This document shows positions 31,975-52,228 of a DNA stretch of 64,000 nt, in pieces. The position numbers and the translations under genes are program-made. The notes under the pieces are model-generated. The model was not told the origin of the DNA and ran no database searches. It saw only the letters and a list, made by a program, of their open reading frames with translations. Numbering within the stretch: the first letter of the stretch is position 1; the number at the start of each line of letters is the position of its first letter. The DNA comes from Coniochaeta sp. PMI_546 (lineage: Eukaryota > Ascomycota > Sordariomycetes > Coniochaetales > Coniochaetaceae): assembly GCA_021432605.1 (NCBI GenBank), contig MU271151.1, positions 434,001 to 498,000 of the forward strand, in the 5' to 3' direction.

Positions 31975-33190
31975 GTCAGGATTTGATTATGTGTTTGCGG
32001 AAGAGGAAGAGGATGTATTAAGAAGACATTTCTTTAGGGTGCATGGTCAGACGAAAATACGTTTGGCTGGAATCATATAGTCAGTATCTTCTTGGGATCA
32101 GTACATGTGTCAGTGAGAAGGGGCGTTGGAGGAAGTAATCACCAGGAATAATAATAAAAAAGTAAAAAAAAATGGTATATGAAGAGGCAAGTCTGGCTGG
32201 ACTCAGAAACAGTTTACGGGCAAGTGTTCCCCAAACTCTCATGTCTGCAATTCAAGTCTGCAAGCCATCAAGGACACAGGGGCATGTGCCCCTGGTTCTC
32301 TGCCAACCCGGAAAACAGGGCGGATCGAAGTGGTTGTCCGCTGGCTGGCAGATCAGTCTACTAAGCATGCGAGTTGTGCCCGGTAGAAACTTGACCTAGT
32401 GAAGCGGCCAAGGTCCTCTAGTGATACTATTCTCGCTAGTCTCTCCTGTTAAGCAGGGTGCGAGATGTCATCTATAAGCTTTTGGTCAGAAGCAACCCAA
32501 GGAGGAACTCGAACGCTGCGGAAACTAGAGCTGGTGAGTATGGCCAGTGGCCGATCGAGCAAAGTGGCATCACATGAGAGACTTGGACTCTTCCGTATGG
32601 CTAGTGTTTCCGAGATTGCGTGAACCATGAACACGTCAACCTTGAAACGACCACAGATATATGAGGCCCATGGTTGTTGGAGTCGTGCACACCATTAGCT
32701 GTATAAGCTCAATCTTGAAAGAGCTATTTTTCTACTCTCGCCTCATCTTTCTCGCCACTTTTCTTTCACTATCGCGTTGCCCCTTGCGCTCTCCGGAGGC
32801 GCATGAGACGGCATAATATCATGACCGGCTTTCTGCTCACCCTTCTCTATATGTATTTTTGTACAGCAACAATTGGGTGGCCCCGGAGCTGTATTAGTGA
32901 TGAATGCAGAACAGGTGTGCTGGTATCGTTTAGTTTGGTTGACTGGATATTATTTCTTTCTTTGCCGTACGTCAGCCCAGCGTACGGACAGGGCAGTCCC
33001 TCACGGGAGGCTCAATTTTCCTTTTGGTGGACCCGGGCGTTGAAGTCCAAGTTCTGAGGATTAGCACCGCAATGGAAGTTTGGGTCTGGCCGAGAGAACC
33101 GAATTAGCTCAGTTTTGACAGTGGAAAATGAAAGCATTGCATAAGGTCTCATGATCAGAGTATGTATGGCGGTGGTCTTGCAGCATGAGC

Positions 33191-33614
33191 CTCTCCACGG
33201 ATGGGGATACGCACCCAAGAGGGATCAGCACGCCACATGTGGTCTTGTAGCTCGACGGATGGGGATACGCACCCAAGAGCGAGTGACGTTTGATGACCCC
33301 GAGGTCTCATCATCAAATTGGAAAGGAAGCAAGGCGTGAGAGCATTTGGACTTACTTGATGTTTAGAATGGTTTGATACCATACCTAATGATCGTCTTTA
33401 GGCTGGGTTGAGTAGAGTTTGTTAGCTTTAGCGCAGAAGCTCAGGGCAGAACACTGGACAGCTAAAAACCTCCTTCAGAGAATAACTTTTCATAAACGGT
33501 TACTTTGGAGCTTGACCTCTCGTCGGATGGTATTACGCACCCAAGAGCGATTGGTTGTCGCCGCCGCCGCCTTAGCTTCTCGACGGCTGGGGATACGCAC
33601 CCAGGAGCGATTGG
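33191..33614. repeat. Four copies of a 32-bp motif in two pairs
   Basis: The consensus is CTCGACGGATGGGGATAC followed by GCACCCAAGAGCGA. Copies lie at about 33191-33222, 33251-33282, 33517-33550 and 33577-33610. Measured at the shared GCACCC, copies 1-2 are 58 bp apart and copies 3-4 are 60 bp apart; 268 bp separate the pairs. The third copy has GGTATTAC in place of GGGATAC. TGGG and CCCA in the motif can pair around an 8-nt loop. Confidence 0.8.
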
Positions 33615-34126
33615 CAGAATGGTCCACGGATCTAATCATGAGGCTCAGAAAAGAGAGAAATGGATGGACTTACCAGGGTGATGTGGCAATGTAGGATATC
33701 ATACTGGTGAGTCCGAATGTCGGAAGGCGAGAAGCCTGAGGTCGAAGAAGTATCCGAGTGAGGTGGTGCGGGATCCGGGGAGAAGATGGAAGTGGTTCAG
33801 GAACATTGAAGTTGAAGAAGGATAAATACGAATTGGTTTAATATGACAACCTATTTGAAAGGTGAAGTGGCAGTGAGGTTGAAGCTGGATTCGAAGCGGT
33901 AAAAACTCTGATGAAGGAGGAACAGGAAGGGCGCAAGAGATTTGGGAGGAAAATCTAGGTTGTTGAACAAGTCGATGTTAAACTGCAGGTGAAGTCGAAG
34001 TGAAATCCAAGGTCGTGAAGAATCACATCCAGACAGGGCCTTGATTCAAATAGTTGCTGAGCTCAAAGTGAAGGCAAGAACCCAATGATGAGCGACTGGT
34101 CATATTAAACTGAGAACTCCGGCTAG

Positions 34127-34146
34127 TTTTTTTTTTTTTTTTTTTT
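34127..34146. repeat. Homopolymer run of 20 T
   Basis: A continuous T20 tract, followed by GGTGGCACTGG. It could be the reverse-strand A-tail of a retroposed sequence lying to its right, or a simple microsatellite. No element ends were found. Confidence 0.85.
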
Positions 34147-36180
34147 GGTGGCACTGGCAGAAGCAAAGGAGCGAGAAAGGCACGAAACTAGGGTGAACAA
34201 TTGTTGAGCAGCATTCTCAAAGTGCTGAGGAGCATCGACACTGGATCTAGACTCTAAAAGCTGAAGAGATCAAAGAGCATCTCCTAGACGGGATCTTCTG
34301 ACGGCATTTGCCCTAGCCATCCACCGCTGTAACCCAGGGCCATTCGACGCAGCAAGTTCCTACAGAAGTCCGACTTTGCTAGCTATATGATGTGTTCATT
34401 AGAACTCGTCGCTCAACGCCTAGATCTCACGTCGCCCAGCATCGTAAACGGTCACGGTTGGTGATGATATCATGGTCAGTCCATTTACACATGACCAGCT
34501 GCGGTAGTTCAGGCTGGATGTTCTATGAATCCAAACTCAGAGGACGACGCGTTCTATCATCCGTGGTTCAGCTTCTCATGACATTCGAGTTTGCTCAAAC
34601 AGACCTGCAGGCAGGGTAAAGCCAGGAATATATTGTGTGACTGAGACAAATATGCGTTCATTATGCGCAACTGCCCCTGTTGGAAGGACGCCTAGACGAG
34701 AGATTGACGCTGGCTTTCATTGATCAGCTAATAATGCTCAGAAGACTCCTCAGGTGCGATTTTTATAGTAGCTAATTATTTGAGGAAGCAAAACTTCATT
34801 ACAAATTTGTATCAGATCGTCTGAATAGATAAGATCCCCGACGAGATCGTGGAAGCTCCAACCCTAGAAATAGAGCTATTAGAGAAAATGAGTGATATTT
34901 ATCCTGTTCTAACTCAACATCAACAACATTCTATACTCATGATGGCTACAAAGCAGCACTCATGGTTTCTGTGCTCCACACTAGACTTGGTACGTGAAAA
35001 TGAAAGACCTGGCCATGATCTCCGGCTGGAAAGTGTGTGAATGCAGGTGGCTGGACACCATGAACGCCATGCCACCAGCGTATCAGAGATTTGCCATGAA
35101 CAATGCGCTGGCCAGTGTTACTTGGCGCAAGGCGCCTACAGGTACGCTGCAGCTTTATTGAATGAAAGTCAATGAGCTTGCAAGAAGCTCCGGAACTGAA
35201 AGGGAGACCATGTCAGCGGCAAATGGTGCGCTTACAATAGAATTCAGCCAACTAAAGGTTTGATGGAAGATGGGGGAATGCACAGGAGAAAATATGCTAG
35301 TGGATATAATTCATCAAATGGCCTCTTCCCTTCTTGCTCGAACTGAGTTGTACTGTCCTCAACGACTAAGGCGCCTCGAGTATGTTAGGACGAGTATCTA
35401 TGGTATTCTCATCGTCATTTCTTCCCCAAAAAGGTTCTCGAGAGAACTACATGCGATCATTTGAGCAGAACAGGCTTGTTTGGTACGAAACCGCGTCGGA
35501 ATTCTTTTCCTGTCTGATATGGCAGATCGAGAAAAGCACCAGGCCGATGGAAACAAAGGGGTGGTATTCAGTCCCGGTGCTCATATCCTGATGTCGCTCC
35601 TTGCTCTGGACCAGTGTTGCTCAATTGAAGTTGTCCCTCGGACCGTAAAAGCTCCCTGGGTCGGTGCAATACTGATGAGCAAATCCCACCGATTCCAATA
35701 GCTATCAACGTTGCTATCGTCATCAACTAAGACGCGTTATGCACGGTATCTTATTCGCGCCTCCACCAGGGCTCCATCAAGTAAGCATCAAGCCTCCCGG
35801 ACGGTCTTAGTGCAAACGCTAGACTTTGTGGACGACGACCCGCCCATTTGACCTGGCTAGATTCGGCCTCTGCTTGGATAGAGTTCCTGATGATGAGTTT
35901 GACTGTTCGGACATAAGTTGTCAAAAGGAGATGACGCTGATGGACGATGGACGTTTTACAGTGGGGCGCGCGCATATGAAAGACATTACCGCAACGGCAG
36001 CGCGGTGACTCTGGGCGAAGCTAAGGTAAGCTAAGGTGTTCACACCGTGGACAAACCTCTGGACCACAGAGCCGAGGAATGATAAATACGCGACCTTGTC
36101 TCGCATTTGCAAACTTGCAATACACTGGTGAAGTAACTCCATATCGACCAAGAAACCTTAGCAAGCTACCTCTATCAAGA

Positions 36181-36656
36181 ATGGCCATCATCCACATTGT
36201 GATGTTTGCGTTCCAGCCTCAGGCAACACCAGCCGAGGTCCAAGACGTACGTGTCGAGTCTTGAATTTGGTCGTGTTTGCACTAACGGACCCTCACTGAC
36301 GGGAATGCAGGTCTGCGACCGCATGCTGGCACTGAAGACGAACTGTGTGCACCCCGAGACCAAGAAGAATTACATCAAATCGGCCGTGGGCGGCAGGGAA
36401 AACAGTTCAGAAGGCTTGCAGGTCAGTTACCTAGTACCTTGGCCAAAGCACTTGTTCTCTCCAGCAGAACATCCGGTGATCGCTAATGTGGACCCCCCAG
36501 AATGGCATCACTCACGTCTTCGTTAGCGAGTTTGAGAATGAGGAGGATAGAGCGTACTACATAAAGAAGGATCCAGCCCATCTTGCGTTTATACAGAGTC
36601 TCGCGGGCGTTGTTGCAAAAGCCCAGGCTGTCGATTTTACTCCTGGAGTCTTTTGA
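36181..36656 (+). CDS. Stress-responsive A/B barrel (Dabb) domain protein
   Basis: Exons 36181-36246, 36311-36421 and 36501-36656 give 110 residues, one full Dabb domain. Landmarks are the first strand MAIIHIVMFAFQP, the helix VCDRMLALKTNCVHP, the GGRENSSEGLQNGITHVFVSEF segment, and the closing FIQSLAGVVAKAQAVDFTPG. These small dimeric ferredoxin-like proteins occur as stress proteins and, in fungi, as cyclases or of unknown function. No catalytic role can be assigned here. All introns are GT-AG in phase 0. Confidence 0.9.
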
Positions 36657-37066
36657 AGAGAGATGTCCACTGTACACCATAGTACACCAGTACATAGCGG
36701 GGTGGTTGAGAGCTTCGACAGGGGCGGACAGAACTCCGATCGCGGTCTACCACGGACTCGAAACGGGACGCTGGATGTTAGACAACGGAAGGTACCCTGA
36801 TAAATAGCTATTGCAGATGATAGAATGCCATTTTTGACTCGAGTAACTCGTCAGCTGGACAATGACAAATGACAAAGCAAGTGACTCCTGTCAAGTCTCG
36901 TCTCGTTCTGCCGTGCGCGCATGTTCCAAACCCGTTGACGTCGTCGCTCTTTGTCTCGAGTGTGGATATAAGGGAGCGTTAGCGTCGATATGCATGACGG
37001 CCGAGTCATTCATAAGGCATGTTAGGTAGCGCCTCCAACATCGACCCGGTGTATTCGGCGACACAA
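36657..37066. other. Intergenic region, 410 bp
   Basis: No gene or repeat is recognised between the Dabb gene and the tRNA-Glu gene. Confidence 0.45.
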
Positions 37067-37172
37067 TCCGGTATAGTGTAACGGTTAACATATCGCGTTT
37101 TCAAAAGATCAGCTTTCCACGGCCTGATTCAAAGGATCCGCGGGGCTCGGGGTTCGATTCCCCGTACCGGAG
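37067..37172 (+). tRNA. tRNA-Glu (anticodon UUC) with 34-nt intron
   Basis: The acceptor arm TCCGGTA (37067-37073) pairs fully with TACCGGA (37165-37171), with G as discriminator. The D arm is GTG...CAT with TAACGG in the loop. The anticodon stem is TCGCG (37093-37097) with CGCGG (37139-37143), and the anticodon is TTC at 37100-37102. The T arm is CGGGG-TTCGATT-CCCCG. The intron is 37104-37137, at the canonical position one base 3' of the anticodon. The A box (TAGTGTAACGG) and B box (GGTTCGATTCC) are intact. A T-rich terminator candidate (TTTT, then TTTTT) follows at about 37201-37215. Confidence 0.95.
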
Positions 37173-37576
37173 AACTTACAGCGTAGCAGCGTTGGTTCTA
37201 TTTTGCTCCTTTTTGCTGTTAGTTCACCGCTCAAAATCTTTTGCAATATGGACCTTTAGTGACAGAGCAAGATCGTCCAGGTGATTTAAATGCGCGCCGT
37301 CCCGCAGATTGCCGTGATTGACTCGAGCAGTTCAAAAGGGAAGCCGCAGAATTGGATGCTCCTTCCCGTGTATCAAGTCGTGACGTTGCTCTCCGATTGC
37401 GCAAGATCTACACTGGGCCAAAGCCCCACCATGAATGTATTGACAACTACCTTACCTTAATGACTGCTGCCCCGCGATTGACACAATTGCCTGGTGCGTA
37501 CGTGCGAGACTTACAACACTGACTGCCGGCTTGAACGTGTTATTCCTGCTGTGTTGACACCGCGACACTCGAAATC
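37173..37576. other. Intergenic region, 404 bp, upstream of the adenylosuccinate synthetase-like gene
   Basis: It includes the likely tRNA terminator and the presumed promoter of the next gene. Nothing else is recognised. Confidence 0.4.
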
Positions 37577-39913
37577 ATGGCGACTATCATTCTGGGCTCC
37601 CAGTGGGGGTACGGACTTTCGGTATTCCAGCCATTGGCTACGCGGAACCGGCGCTGACGGCATATACAGAGACGAGGGAAAGGGAAAGCTCACGGACATC
37701 CTGTGTCCCAAGGCCCAGATTTGCGCCAGGGCTGCCGTCAGTCGCCTGTGACGAACGAGCATTGTGAATTAGCTGACCGTGATACAGGGTGGTCACGATG
37801 CCGGACTCTATAGGTAAACGCCATTATGGTTCCTTTACTTCGAGTCGTTCACCTTGCTGACCACGAGGCGTCCCAAAAGTCGCTAACGGCGTCTCGTCCA
37901 GGTTGATATTGACACCCCGAAGCAGCGACTGCCCACGCTATCAGTAGTAGACCGAGATCTTGACATTATGCGACTAGCTCCCACCTCCTGCCCTCTGGCT
38001 TGGTCAACCCCATGTGCATGAACCTCATCGGCTCCGGCGTCGTCTTCCACGCGCCCAGTTTCTTCAAGGAGCTGGACGAGCTCGAAGCCAAGGGTCTCGA
38101 AGGCGCACGCCAGCGCATCCTTGTGTCCGACCGCTGCCAGATCAACTTCGACCTGCACGCCGCCGTCGACGGTCTCGAAGAGGTCGAACTCGGCGCCCTC
38201 GCGACTGGCACGACGAGGAGCGGCATCGGCCCCTCACACAGCACGAAGGCGGTCCGCAGCGGCGTACGGTTGGCCGAGGCCTTTGACGAGGAGCTGTTTG
38301 AGCGAAAGCTGCGACGGTTGGCGGACGGATACAAGAAGCGATACGGCGACCTGCTCAAGTACGATGTTGAGGATGAGATTGCTCGGTGGAGGGTACGGTT
38401 TAGATGCGCGTTCGAGCGGTATTGGGGGGCCAGGGACTGACATTGTCGCAGGAGTACCGACCGAAGCTCGCCGAGTACTGCGTCGATGCCGTCCAGTTCA
38501 TCAGCGACGCCCAGCGAACCAACAAGAAGATCCTCATCGAGGGTGCCGACGCGCTCATGGCAAGTTTACCACAGCTTCTACCCCTGAACCCCCTGAATTT
38601 TCTGAGATTTGGGAGTTATGACCGGGCTGTCACGTCCAAAACAACCAACTTTTTCCTACAACAGAAACCTGTTTCTAAAATCTTCTCGCTTATATAGTTG
38701 GATATCGATTATGGTTAGTCTGGTCTGTGTTACGCTCGATCTGAACGCTGTTGACTGACAATATGCAGGCACATACCCCGACTGCACCAGCAGTCACACT
38801 GGGTTCGTTCCCAGACTCTCGAACATAGGGTGCATGCAAGAATCTGACAAGATACACAGGCTTGGAGGCATCTTTAGCGGCCTCGCCATCGACCCAAGGA
38901 AGCTTGAGTAAGTGGATAGGACTGCCCTAGACTCAGCTATGGATGCTGCAGTTTCTTTTCATGTGTCAAGCGTACTAACGCCTGAACAGCCAGATCATCG
39001 GTGTCGTGAAGGCATATGTGAGTGGTTTACGGCGCTAACGTTTGTACCAAACGGGATTGCTGATCCGGCTCTTGTCATGTCTCAGACCACCCGTGTGGGT
39101 GAGGGCATTTTCAAGACGGAAGAGCTGGGCGAGGATGGCACAAAGCTGCAGGAAGTCGGTATGGATCACCTCCTGGATACTTGTGCTTCATGTTGAATCG
39201 TGACACTGACTGCGAGCTCTCAGGCCGAGAGTTGGAAGTAAGCACCGGCAGGAAGCGCAGGTGTGGTGTAAGTAATCGCCGCGACTGGTAGCCTGGGGAG
39301 AGAGAGTGCTAATGATACCACATTCAATAGTGGCTAGATCTTGTTGTCGTGAAGTACTCAACGGTACGTCCTTAGCTCCATCCCAGGGAAATGGACGCCT
39401 TCACTCCCATTTCACTGCTAATGCGAGCCAAGGCCGTCAACCACTACACCGCCCTCAACCTGACGAAACTCGACGTGCTTGACGGCTTCAAGAAGATCAA
39501 GGTCGCCGTTGCATACAAGGAGCCGGCTAGCGGACAGGAAATCGACTTCTTCCCTGCTGATCTCGGTCTGCTGGAGAGGTGCGAGGTTGTGGTAAGTATT
39601 TAGCAGCTTGCGCCCTTCTTCGTGCGTGTCGAGGCATCACACTGACATGCACTTTTTCCAGTACAAGGAGTTTGAGGGCTGGAACAAGCCTACGGCGCAC
39701 GCCAAGTCGTACTACGACCTGCCGAAACAGGCGCGCGCGTACATCGAGTTCATCGAGGACTTTGTTGTAAGTTCTTATTCCTGGAATCTCGCCTTGAGCG
39801 AGCTCTCCAGTTGTTGACATGACATGTCGTAGGGTGTCAAGATTGCTTGGATTGGTACGGGGCCCTCGCGCGAGGACATGATCCTGCGCGACGCTGGCAT
39901 CTCTAAGAAGTAG
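37577..39913 (+). CDS. Adenylosuccinate synthetase-like protein, degenerate active site
   Basis: Fifteen exons give an open frame of 422 residues: 37577-37608, 37670-37736, 37788-37813, 37978-38392, 38452-38559, 38698-38713, 38769-38802, 38860-38907, 38990-39017, 39086-39158, 39224-39267, 39331-39363, 39433-39591, 39662-39766, 39833-39913. The family makes adenylosuccinate from IMP, GTP and Asp in AMP synthesis. The GTP loop [16 protein letters not shown] with catalytic Asp is kept. However, GGHNAGH is GGHDAGL, so the catalytic His is lost, and about 8 residues after it are skipped. GTTGRGIGP reads GTTRSGIGP, and TYPYVTSSN reads [21 protein letters not shown] and LTKLDVLD are intact. A coding remnant VANGVS (37879-37896) sits one base out of frame in intron 3. 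The intron at 38560-38697 is GC-AG. Either a recent pseudogene, a pseudoenzyme, or a sequence error around 37813-37880. Confidence 0.85.
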
Positions 39914-48103: not shown

Positions 48104-49873
48104 CTACACAACCCGCCTCTCAACAATAACCTCCCCAACCGGCCCATCACCCACAAACCCCCTCTCCCCAGCCCCAAACTCAAACACCTTCCGCCCCCTA
48201 ACCCACGTCTCCCTCACCCTCCCCACGAACCTCTTCCCCTCCCACGGACTAACCCTATTCTTCCACCTCATGTCCCCCGTCCGGAGCGTCCACTCCTCCC
48301 CGTCATCAAAAACACACACGTCCGCGTCCAGCCCGACCCTCAGCCCGCCCTTCCTGTGGCCCAGCCCGACCTGCCTAGCGGTAGCCTGGCTGCACAACCT
48401 GACAATATCCGTGATGGACGGCACCCTCTCCCCCGCCGCGCCGCGCTCAAGCGCCGCAGAGTGCAGGATCGGCAGCCCCAGCCCGACGCTCGATATCCCG
48501 CCCCAGGCGGCGAAGAAGTCGCCCCGCTGCGACTCCTCTTTCTCCGCCGCCGCCGCCGTCTCTTCCTCCTCGACCGGGGGTGGCCGGACGTCGACGCCGG
48601 AGTCGTTGTGCGGGAGCTTGGGCTTCAGCTTGTGCTCCAGGTCGGAGTCTTCCTCGTCCTCGTCGCTGCTGCAGCCGCAGTAGCCCTCGTCGGTCTCGGA
48701 GCGGTTGTGCTGGTGCACCAGGTGGTTGGGCAGGAGCTTCAGCTCGGGGGTGCAGGGGGAGTGGTCCGAGACGACGGTGCGGATCACGCCGTCCGGGCGG
48801 GACAGCTCGTCCCACAGGCCGTCCTGGTTGGCCAGCTCGCGGATGGGCGGGCAGCACTTGTGCCGCGTGTCGCCGTCCGGGATGGTGTCGGAGGCCAGGC
48901 CGAGGTAGTGGAAGCACGTCTCCGCCGTGATGTTGACGCCGGACCGCCGGGCGGCGCGGAGGATGGGGATCGCCTGCGTGGCGGACAGGTGCACGATGTG
49001 CAGGTGCAGGTTGGGGGCTGTGTGGGCCAGGGAGACGATCTCCTCGATCGCGTAGGTCTCGAAGGAGGGGGGGCGGGAGTCCAGGAAGGTGCTGTAGGAG
49101 GAGAGCTGGCCTGTCGGCGCGAGCGGCGGGGCGGACTTCTGCACGTCGTCGCCCACGCTGTCGGTGATGGGGGGGATCATCTCGGCGTGGAACATGAGGG
49201 TTGTGGGTGTGTCCTTTAGCGTGTCCATTGCGAGTGCAATGTCTTTGGATGACACGGCGGGGAATTCTTCTACCTGTTTCCATTTTTGGTGTTAGTTGGG
49301 GGGCGCTGCCCTCACCTCAACTTGATAGTAGCGAGTGCTATTACTTACCCCTGACTCGATGAGGAAGCCCTTGAAGCCGCGGACGCCGGCCTCGACGAGC
49401 GGGAGGAGCTCATGCGCGTTGCCCGGGATGACGCCGCCGTAGAAGCCGACGTCGACCCAGCATTGGCCCTCGGCGGCGCGGAGCTTCTCCTTGAAGCCGG
49501 CAAGGGTGGTGGTGGGCGGGATGGCGTTGAGCGGCATGTCGACGACGGTGGTCACGCCGCCCGACGCTGCCGCCCTCGTGCCGGTGTTGAAGCCCTCCCA
49601 TTCTGTCCTGCCGGGCTCGTTCAGGTGCACGTGTGCGTCCACCAGGCCGGGCAGCAGGAGCCTGGGGCTGTGGTCGACATATGTGGTCGAGGGGGGGAAG
49701 GATGATCTGGGGAGGATCCGGGGTAGTATGGACGTTATCTTGCCTGTGACGGGGGACACGCAGACGGTCGCCGGTGAGATGACGAGCGAATCATCGGGCT
49801 GCGTGAGTACGGCTCTCGTCGACACTAGGACGACGAGAGGTCCGGCACTTGGAGCCGCTGAGACGGCCGACAT
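48104..49873 (-). CDS. DAL1: Allantoinase with acidic insertion
   Basis: Exons 49873-49349 and 49273-48104 give 564 residues. Allantoinase is a dinuclear-metal amidohydrolase that opens allantoin to allantoate in purine breakdown. Metal ligands are visible: LVDAHVHLNEPGRTEWEGF (His81, His83), GFKGFL with carbamylated Lys168, LMFHAE (His204), HIVHLSATQ and VVSDHSPC (Asp). A roughly 65-residue Glu/Asp/Ser-rich insert follows that Asp (RSETDEGYCGCSSDEDEE through VEEEETAAAAEK), before GDFFAAWGGISSVGLGLPIL. This makes the protein about 100 residues longer than the yeast enzyme. WTLRTGDMRWKNRVSPWEGK and VRETWVRGRKVF end the domain. The intron is GTAAGT...AACAG in phase 0. Upstream GATA motifs fit nitrogen control. 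Confidence 0.93.
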
Positions 49874-52228
49874 TATCTGGGATTCTGGGGAAAACCTGGG
49901 GAAATGCAATGCGGGACTGAGGGCTGGATCCGGGACAAGCAGGCAGGGGGCAGATAGGGCGTCTTCTTAAAGGGGGGAAGCCTTTTTCAACTGCTTGCTT
50001 ATGCGGGCTTATCAGTGGTATGATGGTGTGGTGGGGTTGGTAGCTGGTGAACTGATAAGAGGGTATCACGGTTGAACAAAGACGGGATGTTTGTGCAGAT
50101 GCTGGAGGATGCTTCTCGGTCCTGCAGCAAGATTAGAGAAGAGGCTTGCTATGCAAGTGTCCGTTGAGAATATGAGGTGAGTCAAAAGGAGCGAAACAGC
50201 CGGAAGAAGCGAGCAGAAGGAGGCGCGAGTGGTCTTAAAAGACAGCAATCAGGCCAGGCCGGCGCATGGTGGATTACTCGATAGGATATCGAGAATGTGG
50301 ACACTCGGATTACCCTCGCTGTCTTGGTCCTAGACTTCCCGTCCGCGAGTAACGGCTGTCTACACTACCATAGTACATAGCCCACATGGTAGATAAAGCC
50401 TGCCGATGGGCAGATAAGCCATCCATCCTATCTTATCCGAACTCTCTATCTTGGTTTGCATAGGTACTACTTACTGTACATGTACAGAAGTAGGTCAGAC
50501 GCCGACATCCACCAGTCCTCCAGCATGTTTTCTCTCTGATTTTGGGGTCGCACAAGACCTTGACAGTAAACCGAACCCAGCTGTCTTCTTCTGTGGAGTG
50601 CAAAGAGACGAGCTTATCTTGTGGGTGCTCCCTCTTGGAGGTCAGAACAGGAATCTTGCAGGCAACACACCGAGGGGACCCTGGATCGACAAACTTCTTT
50701 ATCAGATGACGCTCATTGGCTGCCGGGATGGTGGTCGCTGGAATGCACACAATCAGATACCAGCGCCTCGGATGCAGCCGGAACCCGATCTGACCATCGC
50801 TGGAGGTTTAGCCTGTACTCTGCACCCAGCTCGTGTACGCATTCCATTGTATCCAATGAGATCCGGATAGCCATCGGTGAAGACAGCGAACTCTGCTTGC
50901 GGTTAGGCACTTTTGACCACCAGACGCATTTGGACGACAACAACGAGTTTTGATCGAGTAAGAATCGAATAAATATCGAGTAACACCCCCGGAGATCACG
51001 CCGAGTTCAGCGCTGTTCATCGCGCCCTTTTTAGCTAATATTATTGAGCTTTTCACCTTCTCGATGCCAGTTGACTCGTGCACCGACCAATGGCCGCTGT
51101 TGTTTCGGGATTTTTTCAGGGGGGTTTACGAGAATTTTTCTGCATTGCAGAGCTGCTTCGCCATAAGCAACCCAAAGTCAACGTAACTCCAGTGGTCCGG
51201 GCCAGTCTCGAGCGTCCACGATGGCTTCAACTTATTCATTTCTACTGGGCATTGCCCTCGCCTCGCCTCGCCTCGGTGCGGCGTTAAGTGCCTGAGAGCG
51301 CAAGCCGCAAGCACCAGCAGCTTTTCTTCACTCACCGTGCCGCGCTCCCCGAGTATCCACCCTGGCGAGGCCACTTCTAAACACCTGGCTTTTCCTTTCT
51401 TTTGGGCGTGCGAGAGTCATGAACCTCGGTCTTGCGTGTTGGGACGTGGAAACTCCCTGAATACCGCGTTCTTGGAACTGTGGGCTGCTAGTTGCATCTG
51501 TCGCCTGTCTGTCACGGCCTCTGTCGGCATCACGCTCGGAAATGGAGGTCTCGAAGGGGAGCCTCAAAGTTACCTAACAGGAACTACCCTACGTTCCTGC
51601 CTCAGCAGTAGTCGGAAACTCGCATCGTCGATGAGCACCTGCAGCATCGCAGAGCTGGCAACCGGGCAACGGCACCCACCGATGTCGTGACGGTCGAGGC
51701 TTGGTTGCACCCATTGCAAAGCACGAGTCCGATTGGGCTTGTTATGCCTGGACAAAGAGTATTCCTTCCCTCCTGCCATCGAAAACTGTCGTTGAGTATT
51801 GATGTCCTATGGCGTCCGGCAACCTTGCGCGCGAAGGGGCTTGGCGGGTTTGCTGAATTTACGGAAAGGCGTGACCTCCGGCCTCGGCGAGAATGAGGAT
51901 CCACAACCGCGGTCCGGGATTCCGTCTCTCCGGCCGAACCCGCGCGATCGGGCGATGTGTAGCACTCTTTTACGCGCTCGCTATTCCTCCCGGTTCTGCA
52001 GTAGGGATCTAGGCTCGGGTCTCTAAATCAACCGTCATTGCATTCGTTATCATATCCACCTGGATCTCTCCCGTAATCCTCCTACCACGAAGGCAGGCTG
52101 GGACGTCTGACAACATGGACTAAGTACACAAAACATGCGAAACGGAAACCCCAAGGAGATTCCACCTTAAATTCTTTGTAGACAGGAGTGTAGTTTAAAA
52201 GCCGCTTCATCACACTGCCGGGAAGCTG
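49874..52228. other. Intergenic region, 2.35 kb
   Basis: The left 600 bp is the allantoinase promoter, with GATA motifs annotated separately. The rest, to the 3' end of the DUF7025-AAA gene, has frames on both strands (50451-50870, 51337-51690 and others) without recognisable products. A 14-bp palindrome CTGTACATGTACAG is at 50474-50487. Confidence 0.5.
50008..50451 (-). promoter_or_regulatory. Cluster of GATA motifs upstream of allantoinase
   Basis: Core GATAA or AGATAR words occur at 50008-50013 (CTTATC), 50053-50059 (TGATAAG), 50391-50396 (AGATAA), 50412-50418 (AGATAAG), 50432-50437 (CTTATC) and about 50446-50451 (CTATCT). AreA/NIT2 GATA factors activate nitrogen-catabolite genes including allantoin use in moulds. 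Binding here is inferred, not shown. Confidence 0.55.

Follow-up and report, generated by a model that had tools for sequence, protein, structure and literature searches.

Adenylosuccinate Synthetase Gene of the Window

The window, a stretch of 64,000 nucleotides (C9:434001-498000 in an assembly of 33.5 Mb and 24 contigs), carries a paralogue of adenylosuccinate synthetase (AdSS) that is predicted to be catalytically dead (Table 1). As the original prediction had stated, its fifteen exons splice into an open frame of 422 residues. Outside the contested third intron the exons join in frame through GT-AG or GC-AG sites; the intron between exons 5 and 6 is of the GC-AG type (gcaagt..atatag). Judged by its sequence, this gene (gene W, hereafter the window copy) is a clear AdSS relative, homologous over its full length to the PurA/ADE12 family (TIGR00184, PF00709; solved as 5i33 and 5i34). 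It scores 456.0 bits against the purA equivalog model TIGR00184 (cut-off 395.55 bits), the alignment covering positions 1-422 of the 425 in the profile. Among solved structures the best match is 5i33 (1e-137), with 54.9% identity over 406 aligned residues.

Table 1. Features of the AdSS paralogue in the window (positions within the window; all on the forward strand).
Feature	Position	Strand	Details
AdSS paralogue (gene W), predicted catalytically dead	37577..39913	+	15 exons, 422 aa; spliced frame, TIGR00184, 5i33
Exons 1-2 with the intron between	37577..37736	+	N-terminus intact with GDEGKGK (D13, K16, K18)
Exon 3	37788..37813	+	GGHDAGLY: N38D, His41 absent; ends in phase 2
Contested intron	37814..37977	+	Removes the 40s-loop coding stretch; no other GT/GC-AG solution found that stays in frame; donor (3.9) and acceptor (-1.5) both weak
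Putative loop microexon relic (VANGVSS)	37880..37901	+	22 nt, against 21 nt in the C1 copy
Exon 4	37978..38392	+	HLLPSG...GTTRSGIGP...; K140, R143, R147 retained; R131S, Y137H
Exon 5	38452..38559	+	EGADA (D at Q224 site); followed by GC-AG intron 38560-38697
Exon 7	38769..38802	+	Y/F237D, V238C
Exon 11	39224..39267	+	Aspartate-loop arginines retained; G298E

His41 is a catalytic residue of AdSS. Relative to the family, the window copy retains the P-loop GDEGKGK with Asp13, along with T129, R143, T239, R303, R305, K331, and D333, but lacks His41 and the loop that follows it, and carries N38D, R131S, an aspartate at the Q224 site, F237D, V238C, and G298E. The motif GGxNAGH, which holds Asn38 and His41, reads GGHDAGL, as had been noted before; the N and H are kept in the second AdSS copy described below and in 6/6 references, namely five eukaryotic PDB chains and E. 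coli PurA. The chains are 5i33, 1iwe, 2v40, 1dj2, and 1dj3, which we take to be from Cryptococcus, mouse, human, and (the last two) plants. The aspartate-binding loop TGRxRR is present as STGRKRRCG, with G298E immediately before it.

Two further motifs had been described as altered, and here the earlier account stands in part. GTTxxGIGP is present as GTTRSGIGP with an unusual S131, but "destroyed" overstates the change, as the R at position 4 is ordinary: 5i33 also has R (GTTRKGIGP), and 1iwe, 2v40, 1dj2, and 1dj3 have K, with the mammalian chains reading GTTKKGIGP. Similarly, TYPDCTSSH is present and its Y/F237D and V238C are clear departures, but its last residue varies among the references (N or S). 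EGADA in place of EGANA at the Q224 site and G298E are additional departures absent from the original list.

About 400 bases upstream of the window copy lies a tRNA gene with a probable intron (37067-37172; Rfam 47.4 bits, missed by ARAGORN), which two other places in the genome match at 82-83%. It lies within a gene-poor stretch, 32100-37500, with a GC content of 0.47-0.48 at 32001-36000; tRNA matches aside, this stretch matches only itself in the genome, and three ORFs in it gave no Pfam match. On the reverse strand (48107-49966), two neighboring open frames give amidohydrolase matches and probably belong to a single intron-containing gene.

A Second AdSS Copy

A second AdSS copy had been predicted, and one was found at C1:2460834-2463639 (L008 1835-4640; hereafter the C1 copy), the sole other AdSS locus in the assembly by a PF00709 family search and a protein search to E=10; neither search turned up a third. 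The two copies are old duplicates in a filamentous ascomycete. They share 63.3% identity over 412 aligned residues (C1 copy in its loop-skipped model), with dN of 0.29 and a saturated dS of 2.7 (NG86), and two of their introns match exactly in position and phase, one preceding GGH and the other HLLPSG, the latter being the 3′ end of the contested intron. An RPA_C gene, encoding a replication protein A subunit, lies directly downstream of the C1 copy (L008 5714-6469) and would be useful for synteny in relatives.

The C1 copy has 22 exons and encodes 423 amino acids without an internal stop. Unlike the window copy, it keeps the catalytic residues (D13, N38, and H41 are all present) and an in-frame 21-nt loop microexon (L008 2283-2303), which gives GGSNAGHLVRVNGVQYSFHLLPSG, a loop of canonical length equal to the 1iwe segment. 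The genomic reading of this microexon scores 11.67, above all 1,062 intronic 8-mers used as background (best 10.67). Its splice signals are weak as well (donor 2.4, acceptor 2.1), and of 21 open splice solutions the one that skips it ranks first (12.3) and the one that includes it second (9.5). Inclusion is thus proposed on homology and on the need for one working enzyme, not on splice strength. Earlier models of the C1 copy, with an extra 23-residue insert or with the loop skipped, were replaced, since the microexon model gives the canonical loop length and residues. The insert form had been used in the protein search for AdSS loci and in profile scoring, and the skip form for identity, the 117-column counts, and the relative-rate tests; the microexon form underlies the residue, splice-score, GC3, NG86, active-site/simulation, and intron analyses.

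The C1 copy is likely the working enzyme. It has K140S and R147K; the window copy keeps K140, R143, and R147. Other purine steps were also matched in the genome (purB, AICARFT, and SAICAR synthetase), the purB matches being split over exons and below the cut-off of that model.

Contested Intron and the Relic of a Loop Microexon

The contested intron is 164 bases long and contains the VANGVS reading reported in the original prediction, which begins at 37879, one base off the exon frame. Solutions with either one or two introns were enumerated, allowing GT or GCAAGT/GCACGT as donor, AG as acceptor, and intron lengths of 42-220 bases (42-150 for pairs). Exactly one of these is open, and it skips the 22-nt stretch, so that the 40s loop between His41 and HLLPSG is absent from the sole in-frame model among those tried. 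Including the 22-nt relic leads to a stop after 43 amino acids, and a 34-nt version to a stop after 47. A disabling lesion of the kind expected in a pseudogene is therefore present in the ancestral frame. Stwintrons (nested introns), in which the intron would begin one base earlier, were set aside: two introns of ∼35 bases would be needed and, by eye, His41 would still be absent.

Splice signals in this region are poor. Scores are 3.9 for the exon 3 donor, 1.1 for the relic acceptor, -0.6 for the relic donor, and -1.5 for the exon 4 acceptor. Across the 32 other introns of both AdSS copies, donors score at least 5.6, except for one C1-copy donor at 1.1, and acceptors at least 1.3; three of the four signals thus fall below all 32 other introns and the fourth, the exon 3 donor, below 31/32 donors. 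The likeness of the relic to a catalytic loop depends on what it is compared with. Against the references its peptide scores 7.0, which does not exceed the top of the background of 1,062 intronic 8-mers (10.67). Against the C1-copy loop, the genomic reading scores 10, a value reached by 6/1,062 background 8-mers, and the spliced reading reaches 15 where the best background value is 13. By themselves, such peptide scores do not decide the matter.

The original prediction had also offered a sequence error near 37813-37880. An assembly or sequencing error there, in an otherwise ordinary enzyme, would fit a loop whose frame is off by one phase step, but this does not hold up well. Four splice readings of the region (skip, 22-nt exon, 34-nt exon, and retained intron) all give GGHDAGL, and N38D is not a frame effect. 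Because independent departures also sit in exons 4, 5, 7, and 11, at R131, Q224, F237, V238, and G298, an error confined to that region is unlikely to explain the gene, and the second copy removes the need for the window copy to be an enzyme at all. Taken together, such an error is scarcely credible.

Active-Site Changes and Overall Divergence

The six references share 117 invariant columns; 13 of these are changed in the window copy and 11 in the C1 copy (skip model). Leaving out 5i33 gives 129 invariant columns, at which 5i33 itself departs 12 times, the window copy 20, and the C1 copy 18. When the remaining eukaryotic chains are left out in turn, each of which has a close sister in the set, departures are 3/120 for 1iwe, 6/123 for 2v40, 3/120 for 1dj3, and 4/121 for 1dj2; leaving out E. 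coli gives 151 columns, with 34 departures in E. coli, 26 in the window copy, and 27 in the C1 copy. Both copies have thus diverged a little further than 5i33, to about the same extent. Relative-rate tests of the two copies agree, with chi-square values of at most 1.47 for each of 6 outgroups (C1 copy in the skip model). Of the changes at the 151 columns that do not vary among the five eukaryotes, 8 are confined to the window copy and 9 to the C1 copy; the catalytic positions aside, the window copy thus shows no excess of change.

At the active site the picture differs. The set comprised 27 positions, assumed from the E. coli enzyme, and a departure was a residue found in none of the six references. 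By this count the window copy departs at 4 positions (N38D, missing His41, R131S, and Q224D) and the C1 copy at 0, as does each reference when compared with the other five. The window copy is not decaying generally, its rate resembling that of the C1 copy; it has lost its catalytic face. This is the pattern expected of a pseudoenzyme: catalytic residues lost, with the frame and apparently the fold core kept (104/117 invariant columns). Third-position composition suggests that any decay is recent, with GC3 of 0.773 in the window copy against 0.66 in the C1 copy and 0.747 in an RPL3 exon, and an intron GC of 0.50. The best solved relatives of the RPL3 exon are 7r81, 8oo0, and 7olc, presumably Neurospora and Chaetomium ribosomes; along with the presence of fungal-specific families, they indicate a filamentous ascomycete, probably one of the Sordariomycetes.

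The same active-site changes might instead mark a working enzyme of altered specificity, such as a moonlighting AdSS or one conferring self-resistance, e.g., against the AdSS inhibitor hadacidin. The motifs that bind GTP (GDEGKGK) and aspartate (TGRKRR) survive next to other active-site residues that have changed, and an ABC transporter gene and two fungal-specific transcription-factor genes lie within the window. However, His41 and the loop are gone, and a Pfam scan of 29 of the longer window stretches turned up no core biosynthetic family. A self-resistance cluster for an AdSS inhibitor was rejected on the latter ground, and altered specificity as a whole is highly unlikely. Another relative of PurA in which a catalytic residue has changed is PurZ, the phage 2-amino-adenylosuccinate synthetase, where the catalytic-site aspartate is replaced (PMC12884076). 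The window copy differs from PurZ in keeping this aspartate, D13. Identity with PurZ was ruled out, as the PurZ model gives 63 bits against a cut-off of 300. A search of plasmids for distantly similar DNA gave no match, which is unsurprising for a fungal gene.

Simulated Neutral Decay

The two outcomes that the original prediction had foreseen, a pseudoenzyme or a young pseudogene, are the right pair, given a C1 copy that keeps the catalytic residues the window copy has lost. As a young pseudogene, the window copy would have fallen out of use not long ago, the loop lesion and the changes at the active site marking the onset of neutral decay. A C1 copy with its catalytic residues in place makes the window copy dispensable, and the poor splice signals and out-of-frame position of the relic also suit a gene that is beginning to break.

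A simulation of neutral decay in the window frame combined substitutions with indels (0.05 or 0.1 per substitution) and with hits on splice sites, leaving out the contested intron, at rates from 0.5% to 4% substitution. Frames and splice sites survived with a probability of 0.24 or 0.16 at 1% substitution and of 0.06 or 0.02 at 2%, so that a pseudogene at 1-2% substitution could still look intact. Decay of this kind would, however, need at least three active-site codons to change in a short time. Intact frames and splice sites together with three or more changes in the 26 remaining active-site codons (the lost His41 was counted separately) had a joint probability of at most 0.008 at all rates, in a simulation that was devised post hoc, after the changes had been seen, and that used the assumed active-site set. 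Also against recent neutral decay, the changes V20T, F237D, V238C, and P376E, found at conserved columns in the window copy only, need two base changes each; the C1 copy likewise has two such two-base changes at conserved columns, S138Q and K140S. Nor is there any excess divergence over the C1 copy. The simulation leans toward a time when the protein, but not its catalysis, was retained, and a young pseudogene, while a real possibility, seems less than probable.

Intron Density of the Two Copies

Both AdSS copies are strikingly dense in introns. The window copy has 14 and the C1 copy 21, in ∼1.27 kb of coding sequence each (11.0 and 16.5 per kb), and exons are as short as 16 bases in the former and 5 and 11 bases in the latter. 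Other conserved genes met in the genome have few introns: long open frames include a Nop56 relative (511 aa), an ABC transporter (1,385 aa), the AICARFT region (522 aa), and the SAICAR synthetase region (367 aa), and RPL3 and purB, which do contain introns, give three match pieces each. Compared with random placement, intron positions coincide between the copies exactly in 2 cases (P 0.021) and within two bases in 5 (P 0.003). There was no sign of introner-like elements as their source: the 35 introns showed no excess similarity to each other over 20 shuffles, and one intron from each copy (187 and 138 bases), when searched in the genome, matched only itself.

Possible Fates of the Window Copy

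On the evidence above, the window copy is very probably a catalytically dead duplicate. It should not catalyze, because His41 is lost, aspartate occupies the Asn38 and Q224 sites, and the loop microexon must be skipped to keep the frame; no AdSS reaction would be expected in any reading examined. Whether it is also kept as a pseudoenzyme we put at about even, with most of the remaining weight on a young pseudogene; between the two, the pseudoenzyme is somewhat the more likely. We infer that the gene is transcribed, that the microexon is left out of the window transcript but included in that of the C1 copy, and that the protein folds and has been under selection since catalysis was lost.

If it is a pseudoenzyme, the window copy would stay in use as a folded, dimer-forming AdSS-like protein that serves in binding or partnering, possibly with the intact C1 copy as its partner. 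In both E. coli and H. pylori, the active form of AdSS is a dimer (PMC6136348). A more specific proposal is that the ancestral AdSS gene made two forms by using or skipping the 21-nt catalytic-loop microexon and that the window copy became locked in the skipped, inactive form, so that the copies now split the isoforms, and perhaps a shared active site, of one dimeric enzyme. The microexon-included and microexon-skipped forms of the C1 copy are both in frame, and the window copy could lend its 140s segment (K140, R143, R147) to a mixed dimer with the C1 copy; AdSS active sites borrow Arg143 across the dimer. We consider this proposal very unlikely.

In a limited literature search, no AdSS described as a pseudoenzyme was found. 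The extreme and mostly unshared intron content of the two copies is a separate puzzle, of intron turnover within one gene. The pair is an unusually clean case in which whether an enzyme is active or inactive may hinge on a single microexon. In Magnaporthe oryzae, a strain without AdSS is an adenine auxotroph (PMC9330342); against that background, a duplicate that is dead and yet still open poses the question of what it may be kept for.
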